Assembly (NCBI GenBank): GCA_030610785.1
Contig: JAUWRB010000003.1
Coordinates: 1-36,282 of the forward strand
Length of the DNA stretch: 36,282 nt
Source of the DNA: Promethearchaeota archaeon
GTDB taxonomy: Archaea > Asgardarchaeota > Lokiarchaeia > Sigyniarchaeales > SOKP01
Direction: 5' to 3'
Below the pieces are notes generated by a model, which was given only the letters and a program-made list of their open reading frames with translations, ran no database searches and had not been told where the DNA came from. The stretch's first letter is position 1. Every line of letters begins with the position of its first letter. Positions 4,060 through 27,280 of this stretch are shown here, piece after piece. The translations under genes were made by a program, and so were the position numbers.

Positions 4060-4584
4060 ATGACGAACGCTCAAGAGAATAATCCAAATATCAAAATAAA
4101 AATTGTTAAAGATGAAAATTTATTTGATTTAAATTTATGTGCTAAAGATTTTATAGATCTAATAGATAATTTTGAAAAAAAATTTTATAATAAGAAATTT
4201 TTCGTTTTAACCGCTTACTATAACAAGGTTTTGGCCGGAATTTTGGTCGCTGAAGATAAAAGTCAAAAGGTCGATTCATTAGAAAAAATTCTTCCTACAA
4301 TGTGTTTACAACTATTATTCGTGAATTCTAATTTTAGAAGTAGGACTCTTGGAAAAAAATTATTAAAAGCGTTCTTAAATATTCAAAAAGAAAAGGGGGT
4401 AGCCATTATTTACATAAAATTACCACAAAAATACAAAAAAGGCATTATTTTTTTCCAAAAAAATAATTTTCATCAAGTAGGGATGGTTAGAAATAAAATT
4501 ATTTTAGAACGATATTTGTGGAACGATTATGGCATAAGAGATTGCCAATTAATAGGAAATAATTTTAATAACATGTTTGGTTAG
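4060..4584 (+). CDS. GNAT-family N-acetyltransferase
   Basis: LCLQLLFVNSNFRSRTLGKKLLKAFLNIQKEKGVAIIYIKL...FFQKNNFHQVG acetyl-CoA-binding pattern. Confidence 0.65.
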   Translation: MTNAQENNPNIKIKIVKDENLFDLNLCAKDFIDLIDNFEKKFYNKKFFVLTAYYNKVLAGILVAEDKSQKVDSLEKILPTMCLQLLFVNSNFRSRTLGKKLLKAFLNIQKEKGVAIIYIKLPQKYKKGIIFFQKNNFHQVGMVRNKIILERYLWNDYGIRDCQLIGNNFNNMFG

Positions 4585-4611
4585 ACTGATACTTAAAATT
4601 GATAAACGATT

Positions 4612-4815
4612 ATCTTTTGGATTTTTTCGAACTCTTTTCTGATAATGGAGCTTACCGTCCTCTAAGTTAAAGGTTGTGTCAAAAAATTATCTTAGCCCGA
4701 GGAAATGTCGTCCTACTTCGATATACTGTCTCTTATCCCATATGTTAATGCTCGCAAAACATTTTAACCCGAAATCTAGTAGATGTTTAATATAGCGGGC
4801 GCCATTCCAAAAGAT
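4612..4815. ncRNA. Unassigned structured intergenic element, candidate ncRNA; strand unknown
   Basis: Perfect 10-bp inverted repeat ATCTTTTGGA (4612-4621) / TCCAAAAGAT (4806-4815) encloses a locally GC-richer non-coding stretch with internal complementarities (GATAAT/ATTATC, CTAAG/CTTAG, ATCTAGTAGAT). Confidence 0.35.
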
Positions 4816-4854
4816 TTTGAATAATAAAAATTTTATTTTACAAACAACTTAACA

Positions 4855-4896
4855 TGTAATCCAGTATTCAAAAGTTGTAATCCAGTATTCAAAAGT
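4855..4896 (+). repeat. Tandem direct repeat, 2 x 21 bp (TGTAATCCAGTATTCAAAAGT)
   Basis: Exact duplication read directly, 4855-4875 and 4876-4896. Confidence 0.9.
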
Positions 4897-5100
4897 TATT
4901 ATCGTTAATTTTCTTGTTTTTTCTTTAAAGCATAAAGAAGGATCTTAAATTAATATCTATTATTTGAAATTAATAATTAACGTAATATCACAATATGAAA
5001 AATGATTATTTATAATCACTATATATCAAATCTATTCACGTAATATATTATAATAATAATTAATAAAAGGAAATTAATTTAACAAATATCATTTTTAAAA

Positions 5101-5925
5101 ATGGTACATAAAATGAATAATGGTATACAAATAATTAAATACATGGATTATAATAAAAGCGATTTTAGAAATCCTATTGCTTTTATTGGCTGTCCTGGAA
5201 TTGCCGATGTCGGAAAATTTGCGTTAGATTCATTAATAGGTCAACTTAATGCTAAAAATTTTATGGATATTATTTTTGACGATTATCCTGCAGGAGCTAT
5301 AGTTGATAATAGTATATTATCTGCTCCTAAAGCTGAAATTTTATTTTGGAAAGATCCTAGTAAATTACGGGATATCTTATTAATAACGGCTGATTCTCAA
5401 AGTTTAACTCCGAAAGGGATTTATAAAATATCTAATTTTCTTACTGAAATATTGTATCAATGTGGGGTAAAATTGATTATTGCTGTAGGGGCTTATCCTG
5501 TAAGTAATCGAAAAATCAATAATAGACTTCCAAAAATATATATCAGCTCTACAAATGGGGAACTATTAGATAATTTTTTAATAAAAAATAGATGCGAAAA
5601 AATTCAAAAAGGTGTAATTATTGGCGCTAATGGTTTGATTCCTACTTTAGCTAAAGCTCGATTTGATATTGAGGGCTTAGTCTTTCTTGCTGAAACTGAT
5701 AATATGGCAATTGTAAATGATGATATCACGGATTTAAGGGCATCTATCACGCTTTTAGAAATGCTTAAAAAATCGTTTACATTACCTATAAAAAAAAAAT
5801 ATTCCCTAGAAAATATTGATAATATCACTAAGAATCTCCAAATTAAAAGAGACCAATTAGAAAAAGATCTTGACGCCTTTAAACTGGTTGAGACTGATGA
5901 TAAGCGTAAATCATTATATATTTAA
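5101..5925 (+). CDS. PAC2-family protein (proteasome assembly chaperone family)
   Basis: AFIGCPGIADVGKFALDSLIGQL...DDYPAGAIVDN...GVKLIIAVGAYPV...GANGLIPTLAKARFDIEGLVFLAET typical of archaeal PAC2. Confidence 0.88.
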   Translation: MVHKMNNGIQIIKYMDYNKSDFRNPIAFIGCPGIADVGKFALDSLIGQLNAKNFMDIIFDDYPAGAIVDNSILSAPKAEILFWKDPSKLRDILLITADSQSLTPKGIYKISNFLTEILYQCGVKLIIAVGAYPVSNRKINNRLPKIYISSTNGELLDNFLIKNRCEKIQKGVIIGANGLIPTLAKARFDIEGLVFLAETDNMAIVNDDITDLRASITLLEMLKKSFTLPIKKKYSLENIDNITKNLQIKRDQLEKDLDAFKLVETDDKRKSLYI

Positions 5926-10224: not shown

Positions 10225-11031
10225 ATGTCTGGATATATCGGTAAAAAAATCAGATTAGAAAGAATTATTAATAGAGAGACAAAAAAGACGATTATAGTTC
10301 CCATGGATCACGGATTGACTGTAGGACCTATCAAAGGTATAGAAAAAGATTTAGGAGAAATGGTAAATAAAATAGCCTTAGGAGGTGCCAATGCGGTTTT
10401 AGGACATATCGGAATCCCTTTATACGCTCATAGAGGCTATGGACCAGATATTGGCTTAATTTTACATTTGTCAGGCTCAACTTCTATAAGCCCCGAATCA
10501 AATTATAAAGTTTTGGTCAATAATGTTTTAGAGGCGGTTAAATTAGGTGCTGATGGAGTATCACTTCATATAAACATCGGAACAAAATCAGACCCAGAAA
10601 TGTTAGAGACGCTAGGAACTGTTTCAAGAGAATGTAGAGAATTGGGGATGCCGCTTCTTGCCATGATGTATCCAAGAGGGGAAAATATAGAAGATGAGTA
10701 TGATGTCGAAGTTGTAAAAATAGCTGCCAGGGTAGCGGCGGAACTAGGTGCTGATATCGTGAAAACAAACTGGACAGGCGATCCTGATTCTTTTAAAGAA
10801 GTTGTTGATGGGTGTATGGCACCTGTAATTATTGCTGGAGGAGAAAAAGCAGGAATAAAAGAGATTTTAGAAATTACAAAACAATCAATAGAAGTTGGAA
10901 GTGCTGGCGTTGCATTTGGGAGAAATGTCTTCCAAGCACAAGATCCAACAAAACTTGTAAGAGCTTTATATTTAATTGTTAATAAAAAATATGATGTGAA
11001 TGAAGCTATAAAAGAAGTAAAGCTATTATGA
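10225..11031 (+). CDS. 2-amino-3,7-dideoxy-D-threo-hept-6-ulosonate (ADH) synthase / archaeal class I aldolase family
   Basis: IVPMDHGLTVGPIKGIE, GADGVSLHINIG, LAMMYPRG, GADIVKTNWTGD, IAGGEKAG motifs. Confidence 0.82.
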   Translation: MSGYIGKKIRLERIINRETKKTIIVPMDHGLTVGPIKGIEKDLGEMVNKIALGGANAVLGHIGIPLYAHRGYGPDIGLILHLSGSTSISPESNYKVLVNNVLEAVKLGADGVSLHINIGTKSDPEMLETLGTVSRECRELGMPLLAMMYPRGENIEDEYDVEVVKIAARVAAELGADIVKTNWTGDPDSFKEVVDGCMAPVIIAGGEKAGIKEILEITKQSIEVGSAGVAFGRNVFQAQDPTKLVRALYLIVNKKYDVNEAIKEVKLL

Positions 11032-11425: not shown

Positions 11426-11483
11426 TGATTTTAGGAAATGATTTTAGGAAATCATCAAGATTATAAAAATGCAGAGAGTGGGA

Positions 11484-11513
11484 ATTTCGAATATTCGAAT
11501 ATTCGAATAATTT
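11484..11513 (-). other. Predicted non-canonical T-loop intron (30 nt) of tRNA-Leu
   Basis: GTGGG-TTCGAA^[30 nt]^T-CCCAC; removal restores the 7-nt loop TTCGAAT; BHB: central TTCG/CGAA, bulges AA^A and AT^T; insert contains palindromic ATTCGAATATTCGAAT. Confidence 0.75.
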
Positions 11514-11543
11514 TTCGAACCCACGAAGAACTAATCACCGGAT

Positions 11544-11562
11544 ATCTTATTCATTTAAGGAT
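11544..11562 (-). other. Predicted canonical 37/38 anticodon-loop intron (19 nt) of tRNA-Leu
   Basis: CCGGA CTCAAG^ATCCTTAAATGAATAAGAT^A TCCGG; bulges AG^A and AT^A. Confidence 0.8.
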
Positions 11563-11578
11563 CTTGAGTCCGGCACCG

Positions 11579-11620
11579 GTAATCGTGCGTTTCTCACGCA
11601 AGTATATGTTTACTAACACA
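11579..11620 (-). other. Predicted non-canonical D-loop intron (~42 nt) of tRNA-Leu
   Basis: Excision joins GGTCAA to CGGTG and gives a normal D arm; BHB-like: central helix GGTC/GATT, 3-nt bulges AA^T and AC^C, inner helix GTGT/GCAC; contains hairpin TGCGT-GAGAA-ACGCA. Confidence 0.75.
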
Positions 11621-11664
11621 TTGACCAGGCTTGGTTATCTCTGCAGGGGATACAATTATAGTTA

Positions 11665-27175: not shown

Positions 27176-27280
27176 AGCGGGGTGGGCTAGACAAATATTT
27201 ATCTCAAATATCGGGCAAACCTGGTTTATGCCGCAGGGCTCATAACCCTGAGATCGTTCGTTCAAATCGAACCCCCGCTA
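27176..27280 (+). tRNA. Initiator tRNA-Met (CAT) with predicted D-loop intron
   Basis: AGCGGGG/CCCCGCT acceptor (A1-U72) + discriminator A; D stem GGC/GCC; anticodon arm CAGGG-CTCATAA-CCCTG (three consecutive G-C pairs); T arm GTTCG-TTCAAAT-CGAAC. Confidence 0.93.
27191..27218 (+). other. Predicted D-loop intron (~28-29 nt, boundaries approximate) in tRNA-iMet
   Basis: Extra ACAAATATTTATCTCAAATATCGGGCAA between GGCTAG and ACCTGGTTTATGCC; contains 6-bp hairpin ATATTT-ATCTC-AAATAT. Confidence 0.75.

Follow-up and report, generated by a model that had tools for sequence, protein, structure and literature searches.

The window (the whole 36,282-nucleotide stretch of DNA that was analysed) carries on its minus strand, at 11644-11470, an 84-nt tRNA-Leu(CAA) gene into which three introns, 42, 19 and 30 nt long, are set at 21/22, 37/38 and 59/60 (standard tRNA numbering). 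The gene very likely encodes one functional tRNA, its three introns predicted to be cut by an (alpha-beta)2 EndA endonuclease and its exons joined by RtcB. The exons (24, 16, 30 and 14 nt) are collinear and in mature order within one 175-nt stretch, with the discriminator A at 11470 (Table 1). G+C content was 53.6% in the exons, 28.6% in the introns and 28.5% in the window. The codon TTG is used 115 times in the genes of the window.

Table 1. Coordinates of the interrupted tRNA-Leu(CAA) gene, the neighbouring gene and the endonuclease subunit
Feature	Coordinates	Strand	Basis
Exon 1, positions 1-21: 5' acceptor strand, D stem 5' side, D loop	11621..11644	-	ARAGORN, grammar
Intron 1, 42 nt, 21/22 (D arm), relaxed BHB	11579..11620	-	grammar, relatives
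Exon 2: D stem 3' side, anticodon stem 5' side, anticodon CAA, G37	11563..11578	-	ARAGORN, grammar
Intron 2, 19 nt, canonical position 37/38, relaxed BHB	11544..11562	-	ARAGORN, grammar
Exon 3: anticodon stem 3' side, variable arm, T stem 5' side, T loop 54-59	11514..11543	-	ARAGORN, grammar
Intron 3, 30 nt, 59/60 (T loop), strict BHB	11484..11513	-	grammar, arm folding
Exon 4: position 60, T stem 3' side, acceptor 3' strand, discriminator A	11470..11483	-	ARAGORN, grammar
Aldolase-family gene (DhnA/ADH-synthase-like), neighbour, syntenic anchor	10225..11031	+	32 loci found with it
EndA alpha with loop lysine	L026 ORF 1168-1773; L132-L181		catalytic-subunit alignment

The joined exons were called as tRNA-Leu(CAA) by ARAGORN, the identity given in the preliminary description. 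No call was obtained from the unspliced genomic sequence, nor when the D or the T intron was left in with the intron option on; the anticodon intron alone was handled by that option, at the 19-nt length previously proposed. The Rfam tRNA model did not detect the unspliced gene in the region even at E<=10, as expected of a thrice-interrupted gene. Two standard detectors therefore miss a conserved Lokiarchaeial tRNA gene, because several introns break the model.

The intron boundaries were sought with a scoring grammar of our own that describes a tRNA with introns permitted at any junction and that uses neither the previously proposed coordinates nor homology. With a modest bonus for bulge-helix-bulge (BHB) pairing, the three introns of the preliminary description were recovered at a score of 34.6 (z = 9.5); the scores were hand-set, and the null was computed from 120 dinucleotide shuffles of the Leu(CAA) locus only (mean 8.9, sd 2.7, maximum 16.9). 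Without the bonus the lengths were unchanged, the D junction slid by one and the T intron was placed at 56/57; it is the BHB motif, together with the homologues, that fixes exactly where the D and T cuts fall. The bonus was introduced after the bonus-free run and the exact recovery of the junctions was thus not fully blind; the gene call itself is independent of the bonus. A repeat of ATCC leaves the boundary of the anticodon-loop intron uncertain by up to 4 nt, and the best motif among the ambiguous placements was that at 37/38. A splicing alignment based on homology only was discarded in favour of the pairing grammar, as it mis-split the long introns of relatives, mistaking exon-like copies within them for exons.

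BHB motifs were scored as central pairs out of 4 and outer-helix pairs out of 3, giving 4 and 2 for the D junction, 3 and 3 for the anticodon junction and 4 and 3 for the T junction. The T-loop junction forms a strict BHB (GUGGG:CCCAC, UUCG:CGAA, bulges AA|A and AU|U). The D junction is a relaxed BHB, in which the outer helix is short and the central helix is GGUC:GAUU, two of its pairs being G-U. The anticodon junction is also relaxed, with the anticodon stem outside; the one mismatch in its central helix is a point against the preferred explanation. A BHB motif had been drawn at each junction in the preliminary description, which was sound for the T junction and slightly generous for the other two. 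When each arm was folded together with its intron and without constraints, the minimum-energy forms differed from the exact motifs, the T arm coming close to its motif and the anticodon arm giving the outer stem only.

Relatives were collected through the neighbouring aldolase gene. The scan returned 32 loci, 31 of them in Candidatus Lokiarchaeota or Lokiarchaeia MAGs, and the window is therefore Lokiarchaeial, in agreement with the earlier Asgard assignment. A tRNA-Leu(CAA) gene lies beside or near the aldolase gene in 22 of the 31 Lokiarchaeal loci. All 47 Leu(CAA) genes of relatives, a set that contains some near-identical strains, carry introns (one in 15 genes, two in 30, three in 2). These fall at 21/22 (16), 32/33 (31), 37/38 (28) and 58/59-59/60 (4), with two single exceptions. 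The combination found in the window was unrepeated among the 47, while each of its sites is occupied in some relatives and empty in others. Site 21/22 is occupied in G005, G016, G022, G023 and G028 and empty in G008, G015 and others; 37/38 is empty in G049, G051, G046, G052, G016 and G028; at 59/60 a similar intron is present in G016, and the site is empty in G006, G014, G020, G025 and others. On the aldolase gene tree, the base of which is weakly resolved, intron presence changes three to four times per site, which suggests repeated gain or loss with no dated history.

In 25 distinct spliced Leu(CAA) sequences 99.5% of stem pairs were kept and 13 of 23 pairs showed changes on both sides, a level of covariation reached by none of 500 shuffles. 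The aligned sequences had been spliced by the pairing-biased grammar; the stem positions that vary are mostly well away from the exon ends. The covariation indicates that the gene is under selection as a tRNA and is not a pseudogene. A decayed tRNA-Leu(CAA) carrying three unrelated insertions and replaced by another, intact copy is accordingly very unlikely. Three interruptions in one gene would suit such decay, UUG could be read by the tRNA-Leu(UAA) that the MAG encodes, and in a MAG 78.7% complete the other copy could be missing. Against this, all stems are intact after excision, the insertions end exactly at BHB-motif junctions and the site is conserved in synteny. Neither lost stem pairing nor lost conserved loop residues, the marks of a pseudogene, were found in the Leu(CAA) of the window. 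The question of a second tRNA-Leu(CAA), raised in the preliminary description, was also addressed, and the remainder of the 2.97-Mb MAG yielded no intact copy. As U34 of tRNA-Leu(UAA) could read UUG too, there is no strict need for the CAA gene, a point against the preferred explanation. The tRNA-Leu(UAA) gene of the MAG is itself occupied at 21/22.

The source MAG comprises 271 contigs with 4% contamination, and an assembly or strain-mixture artefact that added bases to the gene might be suspected on those grounds. This is hardly plausible, since same-site introns occur in independent MAGs of many projects and most other tRNA genes of the same MAG are similarly interrupted. The Rfam tRNA model gave 25 matches in the MAG, of which 22 resolve as tRNAs (one of them, Pro-CGG, including a doubtful 86-nt acceptor insert) and 17 of these are interrupted. 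With Leu(CAA) included, 18 of 23 detected tRNA genes are interrupted; the census takes in only genes that the Rfam model can find, plus Leu(CAA), and the figure is probably a minimum, as the most heavily broken genes escape the model. Among the tRNA genes detected, Leu(CAA) alone has three introns.

The collinear exons, in mature order within a single stretch, also argue against split or permuted tRNA pieces. Group I introns are far longer than 19-42 nt, and inserts of this size are far too small to belong to them. In addition, no Rfam ribozyme family matched in the region and the inserts have BHB pairing, so that an origin as split or permuted pieces, or as mobile or self-splicing introns, is most improbable even though both kinds of element have been reported in archaea (PMC3218864, PMC6125680). 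Introns 1 and 2 showed no above-chance resemblance to any other intron, and intron 3 resembles only the same-site intron of G016; this pattern gives no sign of recent transposition. Chance, that is, three free deletions rendering an arbitrary AT-rich sequence tRNA-like, has a negligible probability: three excisions placed at will span a large search space and the best shuffles, mostly with one to three introns, approached half of the observed score, but the excess over the null stands and the homologues already refute it, G008/G015 having a 43-nt match, 98% identical and without interruption, to exons 1 and 2 joined.

Removal of the introns is very probably the work of the archaeal tRNA-splicing enzyme. 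Two EndA paralogues are encoded in the MAG, an alpha subunit with Tyr, His and Lys and a beta subunit in which T replaces His, and nearly all complete relatives gave two EndA matches. A catalytic paralogue paired with one that has no His points to an (alpha-beta)2 endonuclease, and the Lokiarchaeal EndA is probably such a heterotetramer, with predicted activity on relaxed BHB motifs. Among solved structures the best match of the alpha subunit was the catalytic subunit of the Aeropyrum pernix (alpha-beta)2 enzyme (PDB 3p1z/3ajv; 2.5e-35), to which the Lokiarchaeal beta subunit is less similar. The NKPR loop of the alpha subunit aligns with K44-P45-R46 of the A. pernix 'Crenarchaea-specific loop'. 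The loop Lys was present in 50 of 50 Asgard alpha subunits aligned, a set reaching from members of the same family out to the phylum as a whole, with R or K two residues on in 48. The (alpha-beta)2 plan has been associated with cleavage of relaxed BHB motifs (PMC6379350), and loop and architecture together have been tied to it (PMC6379350, PMC12397907). In the available portions of these two sources the loop is described as crenarchaeal, and Asgard archaea are unmentioned there.

From the gene with its intron boundaries and motifs, both EndA paralogues, rtcB and the conservation, all read from sequence, we infer the following course for the transcription, cleavage and ligation of pre-tRNA-Leu(CAA). 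The transcript would fold so that the D, anticodon and T arms each present their own BHB-like motif. The heterotetrameric (alpha-beta)2 EndA, with its broad-specificity loop, would then cut both ends of each intron; no order of cutting would be required, because each motif uses its own arm alone. Ligation of the exons by RtcB would yield the 84-nt type II tRNA reading UUG. The introns would be of the standard archaeal protein-spliced kind, gained and lost at preferred sites in Lokiarchaeia.

A single rtcB (tRNA ligase) gene was detected in the MAG (G000:C222, about 4087-5423). It contains a frame-breaking 29-nt insert in VGY|DINCGV (L131, about 1646-1674), and reading past the insert gives one open frame of 502 codons. 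In its best placement the insert is BHB-like, with a 4-bp helix (TTGG:CCAA), a 3-nt bulge and a 9-bp hairpin. No insert was present at that position of rtcB in 27 relatives. The insert looks like a candidate EndA-type intron in a protein gene, for which cbf5 was the published archaeal case found in the papers searched (PMC2738675); an assembly error is the alternative. This too counts against the preferred explanation, since either exon ligation would depend on splicing of the insert itself or the insert is such an error. Tentatively, and with fair room for doubt, continual gain and loss of introns may be permitted in the tRNA genes of Lokiarchaeia and, in this genome, in the mRNA of RtcB as well.

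The thrice-interrupted Leu(CAA) gene fits a lineage-wide pattern of intron-peppered tRNA genes. Thermoproteales are hyperthermophiles and differ in this from the Lokiarchaeial case. They are the richest in archaeal tRNA introns, with 71 in the 46 tRNA genes of Pyrobaculum calidifontis, and, though of a different phylum, resemble the present case in that one tRNA may hold as many as three BHB introns, at the canonical position and elsewhere (PMC8450103). Three introns in an Asgard tRNA had been regarded as unusual in the preliminary description. That view did not hold, as the Leu(CAA) genes of relatives hold between one and three introns at sites that recur, two of them having three, and a 2024 report describes tRNA genes with several non-canonical introns from Atabeyarchaeia and Freyarchaeia (PMC11291895). 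In those archaea 92-95% of tRNA genes are reported as interrupted, often at non-canonical sites, and more than half of them as multi-intron (PMC11291895). These are likewise Asgard archaea with multi-intron tRNAs, but of other classes; the available text of that report makes no mention of Lokiarchaeia, of sites recurring between relatives or of the endonuclease loop.

Within the same lineage, a Lokiarchaeota tRNA-Sec with a T-arm intron is attributed to Mariotti 2016 (cited in PMC5330540), a different tRNA with a single intron. The tRNA-Ile(UAU) of Cyanidioschyzon merolae is reported to have D-, anticodon- and T-arm introns (PMC9602550), the same three arms; the likeness is by arm only, in a eukaryote with a different endonuclease composition. 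What may be new, relative to the open-access papers searched, is the class-wide extent of interruption in Lokiarchaeia and the loop in their endonucleases. Heavy tRNA interruption is thereby extended from two Asgard classes to Lokiarchaeia. A likely cause lies in the enzyme, since all Asgard EndA checked have the loop lysine that is believed to make relaxed introns possible in crenarchaea. This bears on the splicing enzyme of the archaeal ancestor of eukaryotes.

Further observations were made on the introns of relatives and on a second tRNA gene. The 45-48 nt introns at 37/38 in relatives (L029, L035-L045, L048, L059, L100, L102, L112 and others) share the motif CCGTTGA, which is the reverse complement of TCAACGG in the D arm of the tRNA itself and also resembles ATCCGGTGA in its exon. 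The 19-nt intron of the window does not contain it. A box C/D guide role for CCGTTGA in these introns was considered and dropped on inspection, as no D box adjoins it. In L100, L102, L112 and others the anticodon loop holds two introns, at 32/33 and 37/38, with a mature spacing of 5 nt, and cutting at such pairs may need to be ordered. At 27176-27280 (+) of the window lies a tRNA-Met(CAT) gene, probably the initiator (AGCGGGG start), which the Rfam model matches over positions 9-63 only. It contains a 29-nt insert near 9/10 (27185-27213), the boundary of which slides by about 3 nt.
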